From assembly GCF_000236585.1 (NCBI RefSeq), contig NC_017278.1, forward strand, positions 248,001 to 312,000: a DNA stretch of 64,000 nt. The letters run 5' to 3'. Below, piece after piece: positions 8,084 through 24,806 of the stretch (position 1 is the first letter of the stretch; each line of letters opens with the position of its first letter). The notes under the pieces are model-generated. The model made no database searches. It worked only from the letters and a program-made list of their open reading frames with translations, and had not been told where the DNA came from. This DNA is from Thermus sp. CCB_US3_UF1. Its GTDB lineage: Bacteria; Deinococcota; Deinococci; Deinococcales; Thermaceae. The position numbers were made by a program, and so were the translations under genes.

Positions 8084-9261
8084 GTTTCAAACCCTCATAG
8101 GTACGGTCAGAACTCGGGTTCCTGGACGGGCATACTTCACCCCCATCCTGTCGTTTCAAACCCTCATAGGTACGGTCAGAACCAACGGACACTACCTTGC
8201 CGACGCCCTGGAAGCAGGGTTTCAAACCCTCATAGGTACGGTCAGAACGAAAGGGGGCGGTACATGGTGTCGCCGTACCTAGCCGCGTTTCAAACCCTCA
8301 TAGGTACGGTCAGAACCCTCCGGAGGCTCGCCAGCCTCCGCCCCACTATTTCGGGGTTTCAAACCCTCATAGGTACGGTCAGAACCTGCGGGACTTCCAC
8401 ACCACCCCCCGGTCCAAGAGCCGCCCGTTTCAAACCCTCATAGGTACGGTCAGAACGGCTAGGGCGGCCATAGTTTTGGGGGCGGGCTCAGTGCCGTTTC
8501 AAACCCTCATAGGTACGGTCAGAACAAGGCCCCCAAGGCCAAGGCGGCCCCGGGGGAGGTGTTTCAAACCCTCATAGGTACGGTCAGAACCTTTCAATGA
8601 AAATAAAGCTAGATTTGCATTAAGGTGTTTCAAACCCTCATAGGTACGGTCAGAACAAGCGTGCGTTTACCCATATGATATCAGCTTTTGCCTGTTTCAA
8701 ACCCTCATAGGTACGGTCAGAACATGTTGAAGCATGCTATCCAAAGCATGCTTCAGTAGTTTCAAACCCTCATAGGTACGGTCAGAACGGGGGGCTTGCG
8801 CTAGGTGGCCCTCATGGGCGATAAAGGGTTTCAAACCCTCATAGGTACGGTCAGAACCAGAGCAGTCCCGTAGCCTATGGCCGCATACCGAAGGTTTCAA
8901 ACCCTCATAGGTACGGTCAGAACGGGGGCGGCCAAGGCCGAGGCCGAGGCCCCCAAGGCGGTGTTTCAAACCCTCATAGGTACGGTCAGAACCGCCACGA
9001 ACTCTATTGGAAACGAACTTTTTGAGGGGTTTCAAACCCTCATAGGTACGGTCAGAACGAGGGTCATGATGATTGAGAAGATTTGGGGCATGCTCGTTTC
9101 AAACCCTCATAGGTACGGTCAGAACAGGGTGGCGGTAGCAGCTTGGGGGTCCATGGCCTCCACGTTTCAAACCCTCATAGGTACGGTCAGAACGAATAGC
9201 CTGCTGGAGTACCAAGAAGATGCGGTTACCGGTTTCAAACCCTCATAGGTACGGTCAGAAC
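8084..9261 (-). CRISPR. CRISPR array 1 (18 repeats, 17 spacers), type I-B associated
   Basis: Eighteen essentially identical 30-bp repeats. On the transcribed (-) strand the repeat reads GTTCTGACCGTACCTATGAG followed by GGTTTGAAAC. Repeats start at 8084, 8153, 8219, 8287, 8356, 8427, 8496, 8561, 8627, 8694, 8759, 8828, 8894, 8963, 9029, 9096, 9164 and 9232. Spacers are about 35-40 nt. The direction is set by the GTTTGAAAC 3' end, matching array 2, and by the leader on the right. Spacers vary from very GC-rich to AT-rich (8591-8626), as expected for targets from several mobile elements. The array is read toward the cmr operon. Confidence 0.98.
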
Positions 9262-9447: not shown

Positions 9448-10431
9448 TTAGCGAAACCGGTAAGGGATGTAAGGGTTTTCCTCTATAAGGTGTTTCTCTA
9501 ACTTGTAAAGCTCCAGACGCAAAGTCGTTCGGTAAGAAACGGAACGCTTCAGGGAAAGGTGTCGGTAGGTGGCTTGGAGGCTATTTTCCCATTCCTCTAC
9601 CACCAATCTCTTGCCCGCTTCGGAAAGGAAAACCCCTTGACCCTCCCTGAGGAAATGGCCGGTTTTTATTTGTCCCCGTCGGATCAGTCGGAAGATCATT
9701 CGGTCCACCAGCACTGGCTTGAAGACCTCCGCCACGTCCAGGTTCAGGGAATGGCGACGGTAGTTGGCTTCGTGGAGGAAGCCTATACGGGGATCCAGGT
9801 GGGTTTGGTAAATCTGCGCCAGAATGGCCGTGTAAAGGAGGGTGTTGCCAAAACTCACGAGAGCGTTTACGGGGTCTTTCGGGGGCCTACGGTTGCGCTC
9901 CAGGCTCCACTCTTCCCCAAGCAGTTCGTCCCAAACGGCATAGTAGCTTTCGCGGGCCCGCCCTTCTAGGGCCATCAGTTCTCCTACATGTTGTGCCCCC
10001 TTTACCTGGGACAGGATTTCCCCTATGGTGTCCAAGGCGTCCGAAACCCTTTTCCCCTTTGCTTCTTCTTTCCGTAACAAGCGCCGGATGTTTTCCAGGC
10101 CACCTTCCACAAAGCGCCGGGCCAGGTTTAGGCGACGGTTTGCATCCAGATAGTGTTGGGCTTGGCGCAGGGTAAGGTACCCGCTCAAGAGATGTTCCCT
10201 GGGGTAGAAAGAGCCCACGTAGTAGCCAAAGCGATTGAAAAAGTGCAGAAGGATGCCCTTCTGTGCGGCAAACTCTAAAAATCGCTTGTTCAGGTCTACC
10301 TCTCCGAAGAGGTAAAGCTCGGAAACCTGTTCCACTGGAAGATGGCGCTTGCGATCCTCGGTCTCCAGAACAAGGGTGTTGGCCAAGCGGCTCAGTCGCC
10401 CGGAGGAAAAGATGTACACGGGCTTAGGCAT
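9448..10431 (-). CDS. cas1: CRISPR adaptation integrase Cas1
   Basis: A 327-residue Cas1 of the I-B type, beginning PVYIFSSGRLSRLANTLVLE. The catalytic glutamate lies in LMALEGRARESYYAVW; the histidine and acidic residues lie in IGFLHEANYRRHSLNLDVAEVFKP. Cas1 with Cas2 inserts new spacers at the leader-repeat junction. I use the ATG at 10431, eight bases inside the cas4 reading frame and just after GGAGGA, rather than a codon nine residues upstream. It ends beside the array 1 leader, whereas cas2 lies about 7 kb away beside the other leader. Confidence 0.95.
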   Translation of the reverse strand: MPKPVYIFSSGRLSRLANTLVLETEDRKRHLPVEQVSELYLFGEVDLNKRFLEFAAQKGILLHFFNRFGYYVGSFYPREHLLSGYLTLRQAQHYLDANRRLNLARRFVEGGLENIRRLLRKEEAKGKRVSDALDTIGEILSQVKGAQHVGELMALEGRARESYYAVWDELLGEEWSLERNRRPPKDPVNALVSFGNTLLYTAILAQIYQTHLDPRIGFLHEANYRRHSLNLDVAEVFKPVLVDRMIFRLIRRGQIKTGHFLREGQGVFLSEAGKRLVVEEWENSLQATYRHLSLKRSVSYRTTLRLELYKLEKHLIEENPYIPYRFR

Positions 10432-10945
10432 CTTCCTCCTCCGCAAAACAGAACTCAAGGTAAGCGCATGCCCGGCATGCCGGAATCCTTCGGGCAGGAG
10501 GGGGTTTTTCTTGCTGAAGGAGTTCCTTGAGCCTCCTTTCGGTTTCCCGCACCTTGGCTTCCAGCTCGGGGGTTAGCTTCACCCTTTCCACCAGCCGTTC
10601 CTACGGATAGCGCAGCTCCCCCTCGGCCTCGAGGCCCACTTCCCTCAGGCGAAGGAGGTAGTACCCGAGCTGGAGCAGGTGGGCCTCCTTGGAGCCCGAG
10701 CGGCGTTTGACCTCGGCCACCACCAGGGTTCCCCCTCTACCCATAAGGAGGTCCATGCGGATGCCGGGGAGGGCTACCTCCTTGCGGGCCTCGGGGTAGG
10801 CTGTCTGCTGGAGGAGTCGGCCCAGGGCCAGGAGTTCATGGTCGGGATAGGGCTCCAAGGCATGCCCCATGAGCCAGGCCTCCCGGGGGCATATGGCGTA
10901 GTACCAGAACAGGGTGGCCGTCAGAGGAACTGTTCCATCTCCCAT
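10424..10945 (-). pseudogene. cas4: cas4 interrupted by an in-frame TAG (10601-10603)
   Basis: The frame from ATG 10945 encodes a Cas4 N-terminal part of 114 residues (LFWYYAICPREAWLMGH with the first Fe-S cysteine, RMDLLMGR and VVAEVKRR nuclease motifs) and ends GELRYP-TAG. The same frame continues with no shift for 58 more residues: ERLVERVKLTPELEAKVRET, then PACRACAYLEFC, the three C-terminal Fe-S cysteines, ending TAA at 10424 inside cas1. Cas4 normally has a lysine or similar residue at the stop position, so one base change (for example AAG to TAG) explains it. The product would lack three of four cluster cysteines. It overlaps cas3 by 25 bases. Confidence 0.88.
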
Positions 10946-13158
10946 AGGAAGCCCATCTCCTCATCGTAGAAGTCCGCAACAGCTTCCCTAGGCACGTGCC
11001 GCCATTCCTCCCGCCCCAGAAGGGGTGGGGGTAGGTTTTTCAGCGCCCGCTGCAGGAGAGGGGAAACCGTGTAGCCTTGGATCCTGGCCAGGAGGGGCCG
11101 TAGGCGCTTGCGCCGCTCCCCGGGATCCTTGAGGGTCAGGGCCCCCTCCAGCTCCCCTAGGAGCCGGGTTGCCTCCTGGTCCCACTCGATGAAGATGGGG
11201 ATGGAAGGCGCTTCCTCAATGAGGGTGAAGCGGAGCTGGCTGTAGTCCAGTCGGGCCAACTTGGCCAGCAGGTCCTGACCCTTGGCCTGGCTGATGCCCT
11301 CTTCCACCAGGCGGTAGTACTGGGGGAGGAGGGCATAGGCCTCCAAGTCCCAAAGCCCTTCGGCAAGCCGGGGGCCCAGCACCCGTCGGCTACGGTCCAG
11401 GAGGATCGTGCCGTAGACCCGTCTTCCCCCGTCTCCCTCGAGGTCCAAAACCCAGAGCCTCCCCTCCCCCAAGGCGCTCCGGTTCACCCTCCCCGCCACC
11501 TGGAGGATGCTTTCCATGGGGGCGAAGGCCCGGTAGCCCTCTTGGAAGTCCAGGTCCACCCCGGCCTCCACCACCTGGGTGGCCACCAGGGTGAGGGGTT
11601 GCCCCTCTTGGAGCTTGGCCCGGATCTCCCCCAAGCGGGCCTTCCGGTGCTTGGGAATGATGTGGCTGGTGAGGAGGTAGAGATGGGGAAGCCCTTCCTC
11701 CCTGAGGAAGCGGTAGAGGGATATGGCCTCCCGCACCGTGTTCACCACCACCAGGCGGCTTTTGGGGCCTTCCTGGAGCAGGGCCTGCCCAAGCTCCTCT
11801 AGGGTGCGGGCCCCGTGCCAGGCCAGGCGCACCCGCCGGGGGTAGGAGGGGAGATGGGGCGCCACCTCCTGGCCCTTCACCAGGCCGGGCTGGGTGGCGG
11901 TCATGCTGATCACCGTCATCTGGCCTGGAAGTTGCCTAAGGAGCTCCCCCAGAAAGGGCCAAAGCTCCGCGGGCAAGGTTTGCACCTCGTCCAGGATGAG
12001 GATGGCCCCCTTGGCCAGGGCGTGAAGGGGGCGCAGGGCGCTCCCTGGGCCCACCAGGGTAGGGAAGAGCTGGTGGAAGGTGGTCACCACCACCTCCGCA
12101 TCCCAGGTCTCCTGCAGGAGGAGGGCTTCCTCCACCGACCCCTCTTCCTCGCGCGCCAGGGCCAGATGGTGGTGGACCAAAAGGTGCTCCTCGGGCTTCA
12201 GGCCCGCGGCCTGGAGGACCCCCCGGGCCTCCTCCTCCACCTGGTCGGCGATGGCGATGTAGGGTAGGGCGTAGACCACCTTGGGGCGGAAGCCCCTTTC
12301 CCTGTGGACCCGCTCCCTCAAGGCCAGGGCGAAGCGGAGGGCTGCCAGGGTCTTTCCCGCCCCCGTGGGGGCGGTGAGGGTGAGCCGGGCGGGGAAGACC
12401 CTCTCCAGCGGCCCCTCGAGGACCTCCCCCACCCCCCGGAAAAGGGCCTCCCGTTGGGGGGATAGGGGCGTGGGGCGGGACTTGCGGGCCAGGTGGGCTT
12501 CCGCCGCCTCAGGGGGGATAGGGATCCCCTCCCCTTTAGGGGGAGCCTGGCCGGCCAGCCTCCGGTCCGCGTCCAAGAGGGCGGAGTAGAGAAGGGCCAG
12601 GCGGTAGTGCAGCCCCAGGTCCCGGCCCTCCCGGTCCAGGAGGGCATCGGCCTCCCGGGCCAAGCGCTCGGCCTCCTCCCACGCCCCTTCCCCGAGAAAG
12701 GCTTCGGGCGGGGGTAGGCCGAGGTCCGCCACCAGGGCGGGGAAGAGGGGGCTTTCCTGGAGGGCCCGGATCTGTTTGGGCAGGATTTTCCACGCCTTTT
12801 CTGAGGCTTGCCTTGGCCCCAGGGGGATCCGCTCCCACGGGGTCTTGAGGGAGCCGTGGTGCTCCAAGACCGCCAGGAAAAGGAGGAGGCTTTTCTCCCC
12901 CATACCCCTTTGGCGGGCGGTCCAGGCGGCGTAGAGGGCCCCCAAGAGGGCGTGCCAGGTGAGGGGGTCCCCCTTGGCCCGTTGCCCGGCCAGCATTTCC
13001 TGGAAGTAGGGCGTGGCCTTGCCCAGATCGTGGCAGAGGCCGGCCAGCCTGCCCTCCTCCCCCAGTCCTAGGGGGGCCAGGTATCCCTCCGCCAGGGCCC
13101 CCACGCCCAAGAGGTGCTCCAAAAGGGGTTCGTCCGGGGAGGTGCGGGCCAGCAGCAT
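10921..13158 (-). CDS. cas3: Type I CRISPR nuclease-helicase Cas3 (HD plus DExH)
   Basis: A 745-residue Cas3 that unwinds and degrades target DNA recruited by Cascade. An N-terminal HD domain carries LLEHLLGVGALAEGYL, GLCHDLGKATPYFQ and WHALLGALYAAW. Helicase motifs follow in order: APTGAGKTLAAL (Walker A), LDEVQTLP (motif II, DEVQ variant), SMTATQP (motif III) and ILQVAGRVNR (motif VI). The start is the ATG at 13158; the longer upstream frame reads through the divergent promoter region and is unlikely. First gene of the leftward cas3-cas4-cas1 operon. Confidence 0.95.
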   Translation of the reverse strand: MLLARTSPDEPLLEHLLGVGALAEGYLAPLGLGEEGRLAGLCHDLGKATPYFQEMLAGQRAKGDPLTWHALLGALYAAWTARQRGMGEKSLLLFLAVLEHHGSLKTPWERIPLGPRQASEKAWKILPKQIRALQESPLFPALVADLGLPPPEAFLGEGAWEEAERLAREADALLDREGRDLGLHYRLALLYSALLDADRRLAGQAPPKGEGIPIPPEAAEAHLARKSRPTPLSPQREALFRGVGEVLEGPLERVFPARLTLTAPTGAGKTLAALRFALALRERVHRERGFRPKVVYALPYIAIADQVEEEARGVLQAAGLKPEEHLLVHHHLALAREEEGSVEEALLLQETWDAEVVVTTFHQLFPTLVGPGSALRPLHALAKGAILILDEVQTLPAELWPFLGELLRQLPGQMTVISMTATQPGLVKGQEVAPHLPSYPRRVRLAWHGARTLEELGQALLQEGPKSRLVVVNTVREAISLYRFLREEGLPHLYLLTSHIIPKHRKARLGEIRAKLQEGQPLTLVATQVVEAGVDLDFQEGYRAFAPMESILQVAGRVNRSALGEGRLWVLDLEGDGGRRVYGTILLDRSRRVLGPRLAEGLWDLEAYALLPQYYRLVEEGISQAKGQDLLAKLARLDYSQLRFTLIEEAPSIPIFIEWDQEATRLLGELEGALTLKDPGERRKRLRPLLARIQGYTVSPLLQRALKNLPPPLLGREEWRHVPREAVADFYDEEMGFLWEMEQFL

Positions 13159-13200
13159 CGTTAGACCCCAGCATAGGTTCGGTGGTATCTTGGAAGCAAG
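13159..13200. promoter_or_regulatory. Divergent cas3 / cas6 promoter region
   Basis: Only 42 bp separate the two start codons. For cas3 a TTGCTT (13194-13199 on the - strand) and TATGCT (13170-13175) lie 18 bp apart, leaving a short leader of about 11 nt before the ATG. For cas6 a TATCTT (13186-13191) lies 9 bases before the ATG, with a weak TTAGAC 19 bp upstream. The two promoters would overlap face to face. Read by eye only. Confidence 0.5.
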
Positions 13201-13923
13201 ATGCCTTCGGAGGGAGGTAGGCTTAGCCTTCGCTTTTTCGCCGAGGGGAGGTTGCCCGTAACCTACCGGGAGGGCCTGCAGGCTGCCTTGTACCAGGCCT
13301 TGCCCCTGCCCCTGGGCCAAAGGCTCCACGACGGGGGCTTGCTGGAAGGCCATAGGCCCCTAAAGCTTTTCGTCTTCAGCCGCCTCCAGGGCCTCCTCTA
13401 CCTCAGGGAGGAGAAGGCCTTCCTTGCCCAGGGCGAGCTGGTTCTCCACTTTGCCTCCGCCCTTCCCGAGGTGGTGGAGGGCCTTGCCAAGGGGGTGTGG
13501 GAGCGGGGGGGCCTCGAGGTCCACGGCCTTTTCCTACGCCTTTTGGGCATGGACCTGGACCCCCTGCCTGAGGGGGGGGATCTGGTGGTGGAGGCCCTTT
13601 CTCCCATCACCGCCTACCGCACGGAAGGGGGCAGGACCCTGTACTTCAACCCCCTTAACCGCGAGTTCGCCTTGCTCCTCGAGGCCAACCTGGTCCGCAA
13701 GGCCCAGCTCCTGGGTCTGGAGGCGGGTAGCCTCGCCCTGAAACCTGTGGGTTTCCGACCCCAGCACAAGCGGGTAGAGCGCTATAAGGACACCTGGATT
13801 GAGGGCTGGATGGGGAGGTACCGCCTGGAAGGCTCCCCCCACCTGATCCGCCTGGCCCTCCTGACGGGCCTGGGCGCCAAGAACAGCCAGGGGTTTGGCT
13901 TTGTGCGGGAGGTGAAAGGGTGA
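13201..13923 (+). CDS. cas6: CRISPR repeat endoribonuclease Cas6
   Basis: A 240-residue Cas6, which cuts pre-crRNA within repeats. The C-terminal glycine-rich loop TGLGAKNSQGFGFV is diagnostic. A candidate catalytic histidine lies in the N-terminal QRLHDGGLLEGH region. First gene of the rightward Cascade operon, starting 43 bases from the cas3 start; its TGA overlaps the GTG of cas8b (GTGA at 13920-13923). It likely processes both arrays, whose repeats share the 3' GGGTTTGAAAC. Confidence 0.92.
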   Translation: MPSEGGRLSLRFFAEGRLPVTYREGLQAALYQALPLPLGQRLHDGGLLEGHRPLKLFVFSRLQGLLYLREEKAFLAQGELVLHFASALPEVVEGLAKGVWERGGLEVHGLFLRLLGMDLDPLPEGGDLVVEALSPITAYRTEGGRTLYFNPLNREFALLLEANLVRKAQLLGLEAGSLALKPVGFRPQHKRVERYKDTWIEGWMGRYRLEGSPHLIRLALLTGLGAKNSQGFGFVREVKG

Positions 13924-15791
13924 TCCGGCAACTCCTACGGCTCGGTCAAAGCGGTGGGGAGGGGTTCAGGTTGGAGGACTATGTCCAGCGGGCCTCGGGT
14001 CGCCTCTACCTGTTGGATCTGGACCCACAAAACCGCGTTGCTGGCTTCACCCCCTATGAGCTGGACGAGGAAAAATGCGCCCGCTTCCTCTGGGTGGGGG
14101 ATCCTCCCGCTTCCAACGCTCCTCGGGACCGGGCCACCACCAAGGACCTTCGCTACCTTCTGGGCCAGGTGCCTACCAGGATGGCGGAGCATTCTGGCCT
14201 CAAGTCCCTCCTCCAGGGCTTCCTTTGGGACCCTGGAAAGCCAGGCGGCAAGGCCCGCTACCTCTTGGACCTCCGGGGCTGGCGCCTCCAGGGGGCCAAG
14301 GACGCGGAAGCCCCCCCTTTCCGGATCCAGGGGGGAAGGCTGGAGATGGATGGAACTGCGGAGGGGAAGACCGCAGGGGAGCTGGCGGAAGCCCTAGCCC
14401 AGGTCCTCAGGGCGGCCTACGACATCAGGTCTCCCGAGAAGGGGGGGGTTCTGCTCTTCAGCCTGGCCCTTTCGGGGAAACCCCTGGCCGAGTACCCCGA
14501 GTACGGGGACTACCTCCGCCAAAGGCTTCTGCAGGAACCCTTCGCTGAGGCCCAAATGGGGATATGCCATGGCTGCGGCAGGAAGGATCGGGTTACGGGA
14601 AACTTCTCGGCCTTCCGCCTGAAGTTCTACATCACCGATAAGAAAAGCTTCGCCCCAGGGGTGGATGAGGGGGCCTTCCCCCGGGCTTACGCCCTTTGCC
14701 AAACGTGCTTTGCCGCCTTGGGGGTAGGGGAGCGCCTGGCCTGGGAGCGTCTCAGGCAGAGGTTTCTGGAAAGGGATGTCTTGGTCCTCCCCGAAGCGGA
14801 CTTTCCCCAGGAGAGCCTGGAGCGCCTTCTGGAGCGGTTGGTCGGCCAGGTCCAGGGGCTGGAACGCCTGGAGAGGTGGAAGGATTTTTTGGAGCGCGCC
14901 GCCCACCGGCAGGAGGAGGTCCGGTACCTGGGCTTTTCCCTTCTCTTCTTCCAGCGCGCCCAGGCCGCCACCAAGGCGGAGGAGCTGGTCCTGGAGGTTC
15001 CCCCTTCCCGGGTGGAGGCCATCCTCAAGACCCTGCAGGAAGCCCGGGAGCGCGGCTTTCCCGTGGAGGGTTTAAGGGACTGGCTTTTCCTGATGCCCCT
15101 AAGCCGGGGGCGCAAGGGGGAGATGGGGCAGATGGGCCTCGCCCTGCAGGCCGTTTCCAGGATCTTTCTCCAGCTGCCCCTGTTTCCCAAGGATCTCCTC
15201 CCCCTCTGGCTCAAAACGGCAGAGCGGGTGTACCGTGAGGACGGAACCCTTTACGCCTTGACCCGTTATAGGGCAGGCCAGGGGGTCATCGATCTGGTCA
15301 ACCTGGGAGCGGGCTGGATGTGGGTGTTGCAGCGGCTTGAGGTCTGGGGAGGGAATATGGAGGGAGAGGTCAAGGGTGCCCTGCCTCTAACAGAGGAGGA
15401 AAAGCCCCTTTTTGAGGCCTACGGCTTTGGTGCCTTGAGGGCTGGGCTCTACCTCCTGGGCCAGGCCATGGAGGCCGTGGGCCAGGCCCAGGCTAGGCTT
15501 TCCGAGTATAGGAAAGAACCCCTTTTGGACTCCATCGGTTGGCAGGGGATGAGCCTGGTCCGGGTGCGCCATCTGGTACCGGAGGTGATGGCTAAGGCCA
15601 CCTACTACCTGGAAGGGGACGACCGCACCCGTGTGCTGGACCTTTTGGGTCGGGCCACAGACCTGCTGGAGCGTTCCCGGGAAAGCCTTTCCGAGCGGGA
15701 GGTGCCCTACTACATCCTCATGGGCTATGCCCAGGCCCGGAGCAAAAGGCTACGTTCAGGGAGAAGGGAGGAGGTAACCCATGGTGGCTAA
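13920..15791 (+). CDS. cas8b: Type I-B Cascade large subunit Cas8b (TM1802/Csh1 family)
   Basis: A 623-residue protein with the split zinc-binding module of this family: CHGCGRKDRVTG near residue 218 and CQTCFAALGVG ~45 residues later, separated by a conserved basic/aromatic stretch (RLKFYITDKKSF). In type I-B complexes Cas8b recognises the PAM and helps open the target. It starts at a GTG overlapping the cas6 stop, and its end overlaps the cas7 start by 11 bases. Confidence 0.88.
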   Translation: MIRQLLRLGQSGGEGFRLEDYVQRASGRLYLLDLDPQNRVAGFTPYELDEEKCARFLWVGDPPASNAPRDRATTKDLRYLLGQVPTRMAEHSGLKSLLQGFLWDPGKPGGKARYLLDLRGWRLQGAKDAEAPPFRIQGGRLEMDGTAEGKTAGELAEALAQVLRAAYDIRSPEKGGVLLFSLALSGKPLAEYPEYGDYLRQRLLQEPFAEAQMGICHGCGRKDRVTGNFSAFRLKFYITDKKSFAPGVDEGAFPRAYALCQTCFAALGVGERLAWERLRQRFLERDVLVLPEADFPQESLERLLERLVGQVQGLERLERWKDFLERAAHRQEEVRYLGFSLLFFQRAQAATKAEELVLEVPPSRVEAILKTLQEARERGFPVEGLRDWLFLMPLSRGRKGEMGQMGLALQAVSRIFLQLPLFPKDLLPLWLKTAERVYREDGTLYALTRYRAGQGVIDLVNLGAGWMWVLQRLEVWGGNMEGEVKGALPLTEEEKPLFEAYGFGALRAGLYLLGQAMEAVGQAQARLSEYRKEPLLDSIGWQGMSLVRVRHLVPEVMAKATYYLEGDDRTRVLDLLGRATDLLERSRESLSEREVPYYILMGYAQARSKRLRSGRREEVTHGG

Positions 15792-16740
15792 TGCGGAGAT
15801 CCTCTACCTCTATGAGGCCAAGGACACCAACCCCAACGGGGATCCCGACGCCGAAAACCGTCCCCGCATGGACTACGTGGGGCAACGGCTTCTGGTGAGC
15901 GATGTACGGCTTAAGCGCTACGTGCGGGACTACCTCCTTGCCCGCGGGGAGGATGTATGGGTGCGTTCCCGCGAGGATGGGAGCCGCACGGATGCCGACG
16001 GCAGGCTGGAGGACTTGAAGGGGCTCTACAAGGAAGAAACCGGGCGGGATGCTGGGGCCAAAAAGAAGGACCTGGACCCCGAGTTTCTGGCCTGGTACCT
16101 CAGGCGCCTGAGGGACGTGCGCCTCTTTGGTGCGGTGCTACCCATCAAGGCTGAGGGCGAATCCAAGGGTGGGACAGGGCAGTTTGTGGGGGCCGTGCAG
16201 TTTGATTGGGGCTACTCCCTTCACCCCGTGGAGGTCTACACCGCCACCATCTCCAGCGTCTTTGCTGGGCGCACAGAAGGCGGCAAAGGGGAGCATGGCA
16301 CCTTCGGCAAGGACCACCGCGTTCACTACGCCCTCATTGCTTTTTGGGGCAGGGTTTCCAAGAGGCGTGGGGAGGCGGTAGGCTTGACCTCCGAGGACCT
16401 CGAGGTCCTGGAAAAAGGCCTTCTGGAAGGCCTCTTGGAGGGGGCCACCACCCGAAGCAAGGTGGGCCAGACCCCTAGGCTTTACCTTCGGGTGGACTGG
16501 AAGGAAGGCTTCCGTCCCATGGGGGACCCGCGGGATGGCCTCAGTATACGCCCCGTGGAGGGGAAGGCCCCTGAGGGCATCCGCAGTGTGCGGGACTATG
16601 TGTTGCAGGCCCATGCTCTAAGCGAAAGCCTGAACTCCCTCCGGGAAAGCATCGCTAGGGTGCGGCTTTGGCAGCACCCTGACCTACAGCTCGAGGGTCT
16701 GAACCTGAGCGGCCTCTCCCTGGAGGAGGTGAACCTCTGA
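15781..16740 (+). CDS. cas7: Type I-B Cascade backbone protein Cas7 (Csh2/DevR-like)
   Basis: A 319-residue Cas7 RAMP-fold protein forming the crRNA-binding filament. The N-terminal ILYLYEAKDTNPNGDPDAENRPR is the family signature, and GTFGKDHRVHYALIAFWG lies in the core. A strong GGAGGAGGT ribosome site precedes the ATG within the 3' end of cas8b. Its TGA (16738-16740) overlaps the proposed CTG start of cas5. Confidence 0.93.
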   Translation: MVANAEILYLYEAKDTNPNGDPDAENRPRMDYVGQRLLVSDVRLKRYVRDYLLARGEDVWVRSREDGSRTDADGRLEDLKGLYKEETGRDAGAKKKDLDPEFLAWYLRRLRDVRLFGAVLPIKAEGESKGGTGQFVGAVQFDWGYSLHPVEVYTATISSVFAGRTEGGKGEHGTFGKDHRVHYALIAFWGRVSKRRGEAVGLTSEDLEVLEKGLLEGLLEGATTRSKVGQTPRLYLRVDWKEGFRPMGDPRDGLSIRPVEGKAPEGIRSVRDYVLQAHALSESLNSLRESIARVRLWQHPDLQLEGLNLSGLSLEEVNL

Positions 16741-17453
16741 AGGTTCTTCGCTTTCTCATCAAAGGCAAACGGGCCCACTTTCGCCGTTTCTACACCAACT
16801 CTTCCTCCCTTACCTATCCTGTTCCCCCCCCTACTACCGTGCAAGGCCTCCTGGCGGCGGCCTTGGGTTTGGGGGAGGAGTACTTGGGGGAACTGAGAGG
16901 GCTCTGGGTTTCTGCGAGGCCCACTGCTCCCTTGCGGCACGCTTTCCAGACAGTGAACTACCTTTTTTTAAAGGAAGGCAAGCTAGAGGAGCTTCGGGGT
17001 CTTTACCGAGAGGGTCGCACGCAGATCCCCGTTCAGTACCTTTTGGGGGAGGAGGGGAGACCGGTGGCCTTTGAGGTCTACGTGGCCTCGGAGCGCAAGG
17101 GGATAGTGGAAGGCCTAGGAGAGGCCCTGGCCAACCCGGCCTACCCTCTTGCCCTTGGGCCCGCCTATGCTCTGGCCTGGGCAGAAGGAATTTCCATTCT
17201 GGAAGCAGACCTGCGTTCCCACTGGACAGGTATAGGGTTGGGTTGGTGGGAAGCGGGGAAGTTGAGGTTGCAGGGTACTCCTCTTGGTGCCCGTCTTTAC
17301 CGGGATCGCTTTCCTTTGTCGCTAGGACCTGGGAGGCAACCCATGCGAATAGGCGAGTTGGCCCTGGAAGTGAGGGGTGAACCCCTTCCGGTTCAGTACG
17401 AAGGTGAGGTACTTATGTTGGGCGAGGTGGCCGTAGGTGTGGTTCAGGTCTAG
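16737..17453 (+). CDS. cas5: Type I-B Cascade protein Cas5, probable CTG start
   Basis: The first ATG/GTG in this frame (GTG 16839) would remove the conserved Cas5 N terminus. Reading upstream gives KVLRFLIKGKRAHFRRFYTN then SSSLTYPVPPPTTVQGLLAA, the typical Cas5 beginning. The only plausible initiation codon before it is CTG at 16737, overlapping the cas7 stop, with GGAGGAGGT at 16722-16730 six bases upstream. The product is 238 residues. Cas5 binds the 5' handle of the crRNA. Confidence 0.88.
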   Translation: MKVLRFLIKGKRAHFRRFYTNSSSLTYPVPPPTTVQGLLAAALGLGEEYLGELRGLWVSARPTAPLRHAFQTVNYLFLKEGKLEELRGLYREGRTQIPVQYLLGEEGRPVAFEVYVASERKGIVEGLGEALANPAYPLALGPAYALAWAEGISILEADLRSHWTGIGLGWWEAGKLRLQGTPLGARLYRDRFPLSLGPGRQPMRIGELALEVRGEPLPVQYEGEVLMLGEVAVGVVQV

Positions 17454-17456
17454 AAC

Positions 17457-17717
17457 ATGTACGTGGTTATGGTCTACGACGTGGCGGTGGAGCGGGTGGT
17501 GAAGGTGCTTAAAGTGGGTAGGCGCTACCTCACCTGGGTGCAAAATTCCGTTTTGGAAGGGGAGCTCTCGCCCGCCCAATATGCGCGCCTGAAAGCAGAG
17601 GTTAGAAAGATCATTGAACCCTCGGATGCCGTGCGCTTCTACTTGTTTCCTAACCGCGATTCCTTGCGGATAGAAACCATCGGTTCAACGAAGAACGAAC
17701 CAGACCAGTTTATTTGA
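17457..17717 (+). CDS. cas2: CRISPR adaptation protein Cas2
   Basis: An 86-residue Cas2 with the ferredoxin-like start YVVMVYDVAVERVVKVLKV, including the conserved aspartate, then TWVQNSVLEGELS and VRFYLFPN. It bridges Cas1 dimers in spacer integration. It starts three bases after cas5 and ends just before the array 2 leader. Its position at the end of the Cascade operon, in the opposite direction to cas1, is unusual. Confidence 0.95.
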   Translation: MYVVMVYDVAVERVVKVLKVGRRYLTWVQNSVLEGELSPAQYARLKAEVRKIIEPSDAVRFYLFPNRDSLRIETIGSTKNEPDQFI

Positions 17718-17901: not shown

Positions 17902-18879
17902 CTTTGAACCGTACCTATAAGGGTTTGAAACAGGGTGCGGACCACCAAAGCGCCCCCCGCGTACTCAACCTTTGAACCGTACCTATAAGGGTTTGAAACA
18001 GGGCAACCTGTGCGCCCCAGGGCACACCACTAACTCCTTTGAACCGTACCTATAAGGGTTTGAAACGGGTTGACCTCGGCCTTGGGGACCCCCTTATCGG
18101 CCTTGGGCTTTGAACCGTACCTATAAGGGTTTGAAACGGCCGTGCACGGGTAGGGGGGTGGACCGGGACAGCCCCTTTGAACCGTACCTATAAGGGTTTG
18201 AAACTGAGGCCCTCCATAGGGCTTGGCGTAGGGGGTGGGAAGCTTTGAACCGTACCTATAAGGGTTTGAAACTCGCTGTTCTCCATCTTTTTCCTGCGTG
18301 GGCTCCCAATGCTTTGAACCGTACCTATAAGGGTTTGAAACAGGGTATGGACCCGGGGGCGGTTGTAGCCGCCCTTAAACGCTTTGAACCGTACCTATAA
18401 GGGTTTGAAACGCACCCACTTGGTGAACAAAGTTTTTGCCACACGCCTTCTTTGAACCGTACCTATAAGGGTTTGAAACGACGGCCTGGACCCCCAGGCC
18501 GTTGCCGCCCACTTCTTTGAACCGTACCTATAAGGGTTTGAAACCCTTCCACAGCAACTTTTACTTTGACCATAACTCCTCCTTTGAACCGTACCTATAA
18601 GGGTTTGAAACGGCTTCGCCTTCGCGGCACCATCCTCTTCATCCCCTGCTTTGAACCGTACCTATAAGGGTTTGAAACTATTCTGGGGGCGGGACCGCGT
18701 GTCCTGCCCCACACCCTTTGAACCGTACCTATAAGGGTTTGAAACCCATGCGCCGCGCCATGAAGACGGGAAGCCAGCCCCCTCTTTGAACCGTACCTAT
18801 AAGGGTTTGAAACGTTCCTCAATAGGCCACTACGGGGTCAACCCCGAGGGCCTTTGAACCGTACCTATAAGGGTTTGAA
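17902..18879 (+). CRISPR. CRISPR array 2, leader-proximal part (14 intact repeats plus an IS-split 15th)
   Basis: The 30-bp repeat is CTTTGAACCGTACCTATAAG followed by GGTTTGAAAC. Starts: 17902, 17970, 18037, 18108, 18175, 18243, 18312, 18382, 18450, 18515, 18582, 18649, 18716, 18784 and 18852. The repeat starting at 18852 keeps 28 bases before the insertion sequence; its last bases are found again at 20059-20069. Spacers are 35-42 nt. The repeat differs from that of array 1 at five positions, all but one in the 5' third. Confidence 0.98.
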
Positions 18880-19971
18880 CTATGTACACGTCAAAACCTC
18901 CATAGGGCATAACCCCAAGGGACTTCCGCGCCTTCCTCCCCCTGCACCCCAGAGGGCAAGCGCCCAAAGGGTGAGCAGGTCCAGCCCCGCCCGGAAGAGG
19001 CTCTGTCCCAGCCTCCCGTGCTTCTTGGGCCTCACCGGACGCACCCGGTGCAGCACAAGCCCCGTCCGAAACGCCCACACGAAGGCCAGGCTCAAGGGGA
19101 CCAAAAGCCGCGAAAGCCTCTCCCCCCGCGTCACGTGCGTGGCCTCCAGGTCAAATCCCCGCCCCTTCAGGGCCCCAAAGAGCCGCTCTATCCCCCACCT
19201 GAGCCCGTACACCTCCAGCACCCGGTGAGGGTCCAGGTCCGTAGCCACAATCAGCCACTCCCGGACCCCAAGGCGCAACCCCACCACCCACATGCGCCGC
19301 CCGTAGACCCAGTACCGCCGCCTGGGCACCCGGCTCTCTCCCACCTTCAGGGAGGCAAAGAGCTCCCAGGCCCGAGGGCCCGAGCCCAACCGCCACATCC
19401 GGGTGTTGGCCTTGATTCGGATGCACCGGGGGATGCCCTTCTCCTCCAGGTACCGGAACCACGCCTCCCCTATGAACTCCCGATCCGCCAGGAACCCCTC
19501 CACCCGGAGGTGGGGGAAGTGGGCCCTCAGGAAAGCCAAGGCCCTCTCCATCAGGGCGATGCGTTCGGGGGTGGAGGAGTTGCCGTCGTGGGGAAGGAAG
19601 CTCCAGAACAGGGGGACGGCCAGGCCTTGGTACAGGAAGGCCAGCATCAGGAGGTTGACCTTGCTCTTCCCCAGCTCCCACTCGGTCCGGTCCATGACCA
19701 GGAGGAGCCCTTGGGGTCGGAGGAGGGCGAAGATGAAGCGGGCATAGCCCTCCCCGTCCAGCCCCGGCCAGGCCAAGAACCGCTGGAACCTTCGGTAGGC
19801 GGAGCGGGGGTCAGGGCTGGCTATGGAGCCGAGGGAAAGAGCGAGTCTGGGGCCGCTTGTGGTGCGGGCGGTGACCAGAGCCATCACCAGGGCGGCCAGG
19901 AAGGTGAGGCGCCTGAGGTCGGCCTTCCAGTATCGCTTCAAGGCGTTGATGAGTGGGGTAAGCTGTTCCAT
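18880..19971 (-). CDS. IS4-family DDE transposase (copy 1)
   Basis: A 363-residue transposase with the first D in VMDRTEWELGKSKVNLL, the second D in FLADREFIGEAWF, and the YREK-type glutamate region YGLRWGIERLFGALKGRG. The start is the ATG at 19971 behind AGGAGGT. The TAG stop forms the outermost bases of the element. The protein is identical to that of the copy at 23715-24806, so the element has moved recently. Confidence 0.95.
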   Translation of the reverse strand: MEQLTPLINALKRYWKADLRRLTFLAALVMALVTARTTSGPRLALSLGSIASPDPRSAYRRFQRFLAWPGLDGEGYARFIFALLRPQGLLLVMDRTEWELGKSKVNLLMLAFLYQGLAVPLFWSFLPHDGNSSTPERIALMERALAFLRAHFPHLRVEGFLADREFIGEAWFRYLEEKGIPRCIRIKANTRMWRLGSGPRAWELFASLKVGESRVPRRRYWVYGRRMWVVGLRLGVREWLIVATDLDPHRVLEVYGLRWGIERLFGALKGRGFDLEATHVTRGERLSRLLVPLSLAFVWAFRTGLVLHRVRPVRPKKHGRLGQSLFRAGLDLLTLWALALWGAGGGRRGSPLGLCPMEVLTCT

Positions 19972-20058
19972 GGGGACCACCTCCTATGGGTACCTGCCCA
20001 TCCACGTGGGCGCAGGTCCATCCTAAAGGGGTGGTCCCACGTTTTGACGTGTACTGAG
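18880..20058 (-). mobile_element. IS4-family insertion sequence, copy 1, inside a CRISPR repeat
   Basis: A 1179-bp element. Terminal inverted repeats read CTATGTACACGTCAAAAC at the left and CTCAGTACACGTCAAAAC (- strand) at the right. It is flanked by a 9-bp direct repeat GGGTTTGAA (18871-18879 and 20059-20067), which is part of the CRISPR repeat; removing the element plus one copy restores a perfect 30-bp repeat. It carries one transposase gene opposed to the direction of array transcription. Confidence 0.95.
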
Positions 20059-21743
20059 GGGTTTGAAACTTGCCGTTCTCCATCTTTTTCCTGCGTGGGC
20101 TCCCAATGCTTTGAACCGTACCTATAAGGGTTTGAAACCGTTTCCACTATTATGGCTTGGACCCGTGGGCTCGGGCTTTGAACCGTACCTATAAGGGTTT
20201 GAAACGTGGAGAGCTTGGACCCGGGGGCGGCCGCCAGCCACCTTTGAACCGTACCTATAAGGGTTTGAAACTGGGGGCTATGGTATCATCGGCCCACGGG
20301 GAGAACAGGCTTTGAACCGTACCTATAAGGGTTTGAAACCTACCACAGGCTGGATGGTACCGCTCCCGCACGGAGCTTTGAACCGTACCTATAAGGGTTT
20401 GAAACCCTCTTCATCTTCATCCTTATCCCCCCTTTACACCCTCCTTTGAACCGTACCTATAAGGGTTTGAAACTCGGGGAGGAGGCTTCAGAGTTCGGCA
20501 TAGTGCTAATCTTTGAACCGTACCTATAAGGGTTTGAAACTCCTCCGAGAGGATGGCGTAGATGTGCTCCTCCCGGACCACTTTGAACCGTACCTATAAG
20601 GGTTTGAAACGAAGCCCAGCGTAAAAAAGAAAAATTTAAAAGCTACTTTGAACCGTACCTATAAGGGTTTGAAACTGCCCCCCAGGAGTTTGAGGGGGCG
20701 TGAGGTTGAGGAGCTTTGAACCGTACCTATAAGGGTTTGAAACTAGATTAGAACTAGACCAAACTCGGTCTCCTCCTCAGACTTTGAACCGTACCTATAA
20801 GGGTTTGAAACTCGGGCCGAGATAAACATCAGCCCGCTCCCATTCTTCCTCTTTGAACCGTACCTATAAGGGTTTGAAACGGAAAGGATCAAGACGGCCA
20901 AGGGGCGCAAGACCAACTTTGAACCGTACCTATAAGGGTTTGAAACTGGGGTCTAACTGACCCTGTACCCCCATGGTGCCACGGCTTTGAACCGTACCTA
21001 TAAGGGTTTGAAACAATGAGTTCTATGGCTTTCTCTTCCATCCTTTCACTCTTTGAACCGTACCTATAAGGGTTTGAAACTCGTGAGGTCGGCGTACCTC
21101 GGGAGGACTAGACTAGGCTACTTTGAACCGTACCTATAAGGGTTTGAAACCCTAACCTGCCTAGCCTGCTTGCCTAACCCGCCTAGCCTTTGAACCGTAC
21201 CTATAAGGGTTTGAAACAAAAGATTTGGGACATGCTCCAGCAGGCTATTCAGGCTTTGAACCGTACCTATAAGGGTTTGAAACAGCCCGCCCCCCTTTAG
21301 GGTGGACCTAGTCTGCTAGGCTTTGAACCGTACCTATAAGGGTTTGAAACCGCTTCCCCCCTCCCGCATAAATCTTTCCCATTGCCTCTTTGAACCGTAC
21401 CTATAAGGGTTTGAAACCTGGGGGTGCGGGGAAGACCTCCCTGGCCCGGGACCCTTTGAACCGTACCTATAAGGGTTTGAAACGGTGCGCCGCACTCCTT
21501 TCGTCTAAGAGGTCCCGCATCCGCTTTGAACCATACCTATAAGGGTTTGAAACTCAGAAGCCAAACAACAGAAAGAACTATCATCAGGCCTTTGAACCGT
21601 ACCTATAAGGGTTTGAAACGCTGCCCGGTACACTTCTGGGCCTCGGGTGGCCCAGCTTTGAACCGTACCTATAAGGGTTTGAAATCTTGGAAGCGCTGGA
21701 CCGCCCAGGGTGAGGGAGGCTGTCTTTGAACCCTACCTATGAG
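20059..21743 (+). CRISPR. CRISPR array 2, leader-distal part (24 repeats plus a truncated last one)
   Basis: It begins with the 3' remainder of the split repeat (20059-20069). Full repeats start at 20109, 20176, 20242, 20310, 20376, 20444, 20511, 20581, 20646, 20714, 20782, 20851, 20917, 20985, 21051, 21121, 21188, 21254, 21321, 21388, 21454, 21524, 21590 and 21656. Degeneration at the end (CCATACC at 21524, final T at 21685, a 20-base remnant at 21724-21743) marks the trailer and confirms the direction. With the proximal part the array had 39 full repeats and one truncated repeat. Confidence 0.97.
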
Positions 21744-23627: not shown

Positions 23628-24806
23628 CTCAGTACACGTCAAAACGTGGGACCACCCCTTTAGGATGGACCTGCGCCCACGTGGATGGGCAGGTACCCAT
23701 AGGAGGTGGTCCCCATGGAACAGCTTACCCCACTCATCAACGCCTTGAAGCGATACTGGAAGGCCGACCTCAGGCGCCTCACCTTCCTGGCCGCCCTGGT
23801 GATGGCTCTGGTCACCGCCCGCACCACAAGCGGCCCCAGACTCGCTCTTTCCCTCGGCTCCATAGCCAGCCCTGACCCCCGCTCCGCCTACCGAAGGTTC
23901 CAGCGGTTCTTGGCCTGGCCGGGGCTGGACGGGGAGGGCTATGCCCGCTTCATCTTCGCCCTCCTCCGACCCCAAGGGCTCCTCCTGGTCATGGACCGGA
24001 CCGAGTGGGAGCTGGGGAAGAGCAAGGTCAACCTCCTGATGCTGGCCTTCCTGTACCAAGGCCTGGCCGTCCCCCTGTTCTGGAGCTTCCTTCCCCACGA
24101 CGGCAACTCCTCCACCCCCGAACGCATCGCCCTGATGGAGAGGGCCTTGGCTTTCCTGAGGGCCCACTTCCCCCACCTCCGGGTGGAGGGGTTCCTGGCG
24201 GATCGGGAGTTCATAGGGGAGGCGTGGTTCCGGTACCTGGAGGAGAAGGGCATCCCCCGGTGCATCCGAATCAAGGCCAACACCCGGATGTGGCGGTTGG
24301 GCTCGGGCCCTCGGGCCTGGGAGCTCTTTGCCTCCCTGAAGGTGGGAGAGAGCCGGGTGCCCAGGCGGCGGTACTGGGTCTACGGGCGGCGCATGTGGGT
24401 GGTGGGGTTGCGCCTTGGGGTCCGGGAGTGGCTGATTGTGGCTACGGACCTGGACCCTCACCGGGTGCTGGAGGTGTACGGGCTCAGGTGGGGGATAGAG
24501 CGGCTCTTTGGGGCCCTGAAGGGGCGGGGATTTGACCTGGAGGCCACGCACGTGACGCGGGGGGAGAGGCTTTCGCGGCTTTTGGTCCCCTTGAGCCTGG
24601 CCTTCGTGTGGGCGTTTCGGACGGGGCTTGTGCTGCACCGGGTGCGTCCGGTGAGGCCCAAGAAGCACGGGAGGCTGGGACAGAGCCTCTTCCGGGCGGG
24701 GCTGGACCTGCTCACCCTTTGGGCGCTTGCCCTCTGGGGTGCAGGGGGAGGAAGGCGCGGAAGTCCCTTGGGGTTATGCCCTATGGAGGTTTTGACGTGT
24801 ACATAG
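23628..24806 (+). mobile_element. IS4-family insertion sequence, copy 2
   Basis: A 1179-bp copy of the element at 18880-20058, inverted relative to it, with the same ends (CTCAGTACACGTCAAAAC and, on the - strand, CTATGTACACGTCAAAAC). The 9 bases outside the ends (AGCCAGTGC and TGCGGGCAG) are not a direct repeat, unlike copy 1. Confidence 0.93.
23715..24806 (+). CDS. IS4-family DDE transposase (copy 2)
   Basis: A 363-residue protein identical to the transposase of the CRISPR-resident copy, with the same ATG behind AGGAGGT and the same stop codon formed by the last bases of the element. D, D and the Y-x2-R-W-x-I-E-x-L-F region are intact, so it is probably active. Confidence 0.95.
   Translation: MEQLTPLINALKRYWKADLRRLTFLAALVMALVTARTTSGPRLALSLGSIASPDPRSAYRRFQRFLAWPGLDGEGYARFIFALLRPQGLLLVMDRTEWELGKSKVNLLMLAFLYQGLAVPLFWSFLPHDGNSSTPERIALMERALAFLRAHFPHLRVEGFLADREFIGEAWFRYLEEKGIPRCIRIKANTRMWRLGSGPRAWELFASLKVGESRVPRRRYWVYGRRMWVVGLRLGVREWLIVATDLDPHRVLEVYGLRWGIERLFGALKGRGFDLEATHVTRGERLSRLLVPLSLAFVWAFRTGLVLHRVRPVRPKKHGRLGQSLFRAGLDLLTLWALALWGAGGGRRGSPLGLCPMEVLTCT

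Follow-up and report, generated by a model that had tools for sequence, protein, structure and literature searches.

Cas4 checks and trims new CRISPR spacers, and in the hot-spring bacterium Thermus sp. CCB_US3_UF1 the cas4 gene of a type I-B CRISPR-Cas locus is interrupted by an in-frame amber codon. The locus thereby raises the question of whether this strain still makes a working Cas4 by some route, or whether its adaptation genes are left to operate without one. A sequence-only reading of the same DNA had left three options standing, namely adaptation without Cas4, read-through of the TAG, and a sequencing error. Here, we examine the gene, its product, and its genomic surroundings, and weigh these options together with others that the sequence suggests.

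The window, i.e., the whole stretch of DNA that was analysed, is 64,000 nucleotides long and spans C2:248001-312000 in a two-contig genome of 2,263,488 bases; the locus is described in positions of the window. According to the published description of the genome, a genomic island (245986-276477) contains the CRISPR-associated genes, and the two repeat sequences given there are those found in this locus (PMC4599208). In the locus (Table 1), cas1, cas4, and cas3 are on the minus strand, cas6, a cas8b-like gene, cas7, cas5, and cas2 are on the plus strand, and there is an array at either end. Every frame except that of cas4 is open. The type I-B assignment rests on matches to Cas1b, Cas7/Csh2, Cas6, Cas3, and Cas2, with Cas8b matched only below cut-off and Cas5 recognised by homology to T. 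brockianus; as claimed earlier from the sequence, it holds for Cas1 and Cas7. Array B is interrupted by an insertion sequence with a 366-residue transposase (18880-20060), which lies inside a repeat and is flanked on both sides by the repeat end GGGTTTGAA, resembling a target-site duplication. The element occurs again nearby, at 23706-24806, in the opposite orientation and with an identical translation.

Table 1. Features of the type I-B CRISPR-Cas locus of Thermus sp. CCB_US3_UF1, in window positions.
Feature	Position	Strand	Description
CRISPR array A	8084..9261	-	18 repeats, 17 spacers; leader on cas1 side
cas1 (type I-B Cas1b)	9448..10431	-	intact, 327 aa; TIGR03641 422.7 bits
cas4 frame remainder	10424..10600	-	58 codons + TAA; holds C157, C160, C166
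cas4 premature amber codon TAG	10601..10603	-	GAG in closest relatives
cas4 N-terminal open frame	10601..10945	-	114 codons + TAG; holds C19 (10889-10891), D65, E78, K80
cas3 (HD domain + helicase)	10921..13353	-	intact, 810 aa
cas6	13201..13923	+	intact
cas8b-like large subunit (TM1802/Csh1-like)	13920..15791	+	intact, 623 aa; below NCBIfam cut-offs; T. brockianus orthologue
cas7 (Csh2, type I-B)	15781..16740	+	intact; TIGR02590 207.5 bits
cas5 region	16752..17453	+	ORF listed from GTG 16839; T. brockianus cas5 homology extends upstream
cas2	17457..17717	+	intact, 86 aa; PF09827 68.9 bits
CRISPR array B	17902..21685	+	39 repeats; leader on cas2 side; insertion sequence interrupts

The cas4 frame opens with an ATG at 10945 and is closed after 114 codons by the TAG, exactly where the sequence-only reading had placed it. 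Past the TAG, the same frame runs for 58 more codons without a stop or a frameshift to a TAA at 10424-10426, and this stretch contains the motif CRACAYLEFC. The N-terminal part alone matches the Pfam family Cas_Cas4 (PF01930) with 93.6 bits over profile positions 2-106, and the match grows to 153.7 bits over positions 2-159 of 160 when the frame is read through, so the sequence after the stop is genuine Cas4. The read-through frame also belongs to the Cas4 family by its score against TIGR00372 (81.5 bits, cut-off 65), and it overlaps cas3 (stop at 10921-10923) and cas1 (ATG at 10431-10429) as its relatives do. In an alignment of 15 Cas4 proteins, the four Fe-S cysteines C19, C157, C160, and C166 are invariant, and so are D65, E78, K80, and Q92. 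The earlier statements that the unbroken frame completes a Cas4 and that the amber codon removes three of its four Fe-S cysteines are thus borne out.

The codon at the stop site is GAG in the closest relatives, which are two strains of T. brockianus, the genome G026, and JCM 17653, while arginine, lysine, or histidine also occurs at the site in more distant ones. A single transversion from a GAG-type codon would explain the TAG, in keeping with the one substitution from a sense codon that had been proposed, and the alignment with cas4 of related Thermus loci that the proposal called for agrees with it. Among the 54 near-full-length Cas4 matches listed from 111 Deinococcota genomes, an internal stop occurs in this cas4 and in no other, so the stop is not part of a background of such alleles. 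Type I-B cas4 genes elsewhere in Thermus have been damaged by other routes, through a deletion in T. thermophilus HB5018 and, in the draft sequence of JCM 17653, a frameshift close to the gene end.

The 114-residue product would keep all of the PD-(D/E)XK catalytic residues (D65, E78, and K80) as well as Q92, and C19 is the sole cysteine of the four-cysteine Fe-S site that precedes the stop. When the stop is read as glutamate, AlphaFold predicts a chain with a pLDDT of 74.7 and a pTM of 0.72. A fold search of solved structures with this model gave as its top hits the Cas4 subunits of Cas4-Cas1-Cas2 complexes, 7mi4 (E 4.8e-6) and 8d3l (E 1.3e-5), and a sequence-based search of solved structures returned nothing. 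In this model, a strand (118-122) and two helices (126-143 and 155-159) lie past the stop, so that the truncated product would lack the final strand and the long helix of the model together with the three cysteines. The 114-residue chain alone is predicted with a pLDDT of 61.9 and a pTM of 0.48, and its model gave no match in the fold search of solved structures at E <= 0.001. Predictions for a truncated chain count for little, and two published observations weigh more: the four-cysteine module is reported in all Cas4 family members (PMC5704561), and a single Fe-S cysteine mutant (C16A) of Francisella novicida Cas4 is insoluble (PMC13034035). Taken together, we infer that the 114-residue product is unstable or inactive, which would leave the strain without working Cas4.

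The genome offers no evident substitute, as far as sequence matches can tell. A second Cas4 as a stand-in was rejected, since the only other Cas4-family match is a plasmid-borne PD-(D/E)XK protein that scores below the Pfam cut-off and has a single cysteine, and the only other trace is a cas4-cas1 fragment (L002, C2:1742720-1743047). This remnant consists of the C-terminus of Cas4 and the first ~62 residues of Cas1, followed by transposase-like sequence, and it is common to two Thermus species (also in G021, L009). A second intact cas1 stands beside type III-A genes and arrays (L097 6476-7423), and no cas4 was detected beside it at this type III locus.

The age of the stop can be judged from the sequence behind it. 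Past the stop, codon GC is 0.60, down from 0.81, and synonymous divergence is higher, and both changes might be taken for decay; this interpretation was rejected because they extend through the intact cas1 and are seen again in cas5 and cas2, and the shift is thus a regional property. Nor does the frame resemble a decayed pseudogene, since its 58 codons hold no further stop or frameshift and its divergence is as in intact cas1. Nonsynonymous divergence past the stop on this branch is 0.162, compared with 0.140 expected for an unbroken gene (scaled to cas1), and this agreement with intact cas1 points to a recent stop. By a rough Poisson calculation, a stop that predates the last tenth of the branch is rejected at about 5%; this age is an order-of-magnitude bound, as the branch lengths come from three sequences and synonymous sites are saturated. 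The undecayed frame would accordingly mean that the stop is recent, that the downstream part is still in use, or that the base is wrong. As a separate observation, codon GC shifts sharply inside cas4 itself (best change points at codons 112-143), and lower codon GC with higher synonymous divergence marks cas1 as well as cas5 and cas2 (16752-17717); the genes flanking the arrays are possibly a recombination mosaic.

If the TAG were a base-call or assembly error and cas4 were intact in the strain, an undecayed remainder of the frame would follow naturally, and a single sequence of the strain stands behind the call. The typical failure of 454 sequencing, however, is in homopolymer length and not substitution, and the stop site is neither a homopolymer nor a repeat. 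Since the assembly combines Illumina reads at 115x with 454 reads at 21x and was consensus-corrected (PMC4599208), we regard such an error as unlikely. The maintained frame would also suit a TAG that is read through often enough to make sufficient full-length Cas4, but the decoding machinery speaks against it. The genome has 47 tRNA matches, and ARAGORN, applied to the locus of each, found no tRNA with the anticodon CTA; one tRNA may have escaped this survey, as the published count is 48 (PMC4599208). On these 47 loci, the amber-suppressor tRNA that had been suggested earlier as worth looking for is rejected as a route to full-length Cas4. Release factor 1 (RF1) has not been lost (465 bits), so that neither mark of a genome with recoded amber codons is found, and TAG is the ordinary stop of cas5, cmr4, cmr5, cmr6, and another CRISPR-associated gene in the window. 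General or efficient read-through is unlikely on these grounds, and we hold it very improbable that Cas4 function is sustained in this way.

Two further explanations would let the gene work in spite of the stop. Translation might end at the TAG and re-initiate at a GTG 9 bases on, yielding a nuclease part and a separate 55-residue part with the three cysteines, which would reassemble and act together with Cas1-Cas2. Both pieces are undecayed, and a TAGGA stands 7 bases upstream of the in-frame GTG where the same codons in relatives read GAGGAGCGCCGGGTG, but this Shine-Dalgarno-like match stems from the conserved EERRVE coding sequence and is therefore not specific; relatives that have no stop carry an even better GAGGAG-GTG at this place. 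As the N-terminal chain is also predicted to fold poorly alone and a split cas4 occurs in none of the relatives examined, a two-piece Cas4 has very little probability. The retention of D65, E78, K80, and Q92 could instead be read as a sign that the 114-residue protein is a working, Fe-S-free short Cas4. This is extremely improbable given the reported occurrence of the four-cysteine module throughout the family, the insolubility of the F. novicida cysteine mutant, and the poor predicted fold with no structural match.

Among the options of the sequence-only reading, adaptation without Cas4 is consequently the one favoured, whereas read-through is disfavoured and sequencing error is unlikely. A recent single-base nonsense mutation has probably turned a GAG-type codon of cas4 into TAG, in a type I-B locus that is intact in other respects, leaving Cas1-Cas2 adaptation without Cas4. 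Under this explanation, cas1, which has its own AGGAGG at 10435-10440 within the end of cas4, and cas2 remain, and intact Cas1 and Cas2 could still insert spacers, without the trimming and the control of PAM and orientation that Cas4 would provide. None of the interference genes is affected, and immunity that is already in place should therefore function. In the type V-A system of F. novicida, deletion of cas4, the D78N mutation, or a natural L6-stop allele leaves acquisition efficiency about unchanged and abolishes the PAM signature (PMC13034035). Because the absence or mutation of cas4 has this effect there, uptake without PAM selection is to be expected in the Thermus strain, and it would bring in many useless spacers.

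The arrays themselves yielded 54 spacers, with one further spacer behind the insertion sequence. These 54 spacers had no match among Thermus phages. Five exact cores were without a match in viral contigs, and the core shared by spacers A01 and B31 had no extended match. Only one of the 54, the old spacer B34, has a recognisable target, a plasmid parA/AAA-ATPase gene with the 5' flank ACG. The sixth and fifteenth spacers of array B (18273-18311 and 20070-20108) are near-identical, with two differences and the same boundaries, which reflects either a duplication within the array or separate uptake events from variant targets. Spacer B31 overlaps A03 on the opposite strand and has 16 bases in common with A01 (9059-9095, 9194-9231, 21218-21253); the three point to a single source element or its relatives.

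Three known loci are instructive for comparison. The I-B locus of T. brockianus (pTB1) has the same order and orientation, with cas6 diverging from cas3-cas4-cas1 and followed by cas8b-cas7-cas5-cas2, and its Cas4 is 73% identical to that of CCB_US3_UF1; its cas4 frame, however, is intact with GAG at the site and lies on a megaplasmid, whereas that of CCB_US3_UF1 is chromosomal. In T. thermophilus HB5018 (plasmid pHB5018b), Cas4 has likewise lost the C-terminus with the three cysteines, but there a deletion fuses cas4 codon ~134 to an internal piece of cas1 (L023 6001-6546, annotated Cas4), cas8b is shortened, and the whole locus is decaying, unlike that of CCB_US3_UF1. The third is the type V-A cas4 of F. 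novicida U112, in which a natural TAG allele (L6, TTG to TAG) has already been described and tested (PMC13034035). It resembles the Thermus gene in its natural in-frame amber codon, in the adjoining cas1 and cas2, and in a four-cysteine Fe-S site that is expected to be compromised (PMC13034035). It differs in that codon 6 is the one interrupted, and translation may begin further downstream with the loss of one cysteine, while in the I-B gene of Thermus the stop is at codon 115 and three cysteines are lost.

The CCB_US3_UF1 allele is most likely an ordinary loss-of-function mutation, and another bacterium has already provided a case of this kind; it changes no concept, and its use lies in being a natural mutant. 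Provided that the allele is real, CCB_US3_UF1 is a thermophile whose type I-B system carries a natural cas4 mutation while cas1, cas2, the effector genes, and two arrays are intact. With such a strain, one could examine in a native host whether losing Cas4 deprives I-B adaptation of its control over PAM and orientation, as has been shown in other types. The stop allele also shows how a CRISPR system may start losing fidelity.
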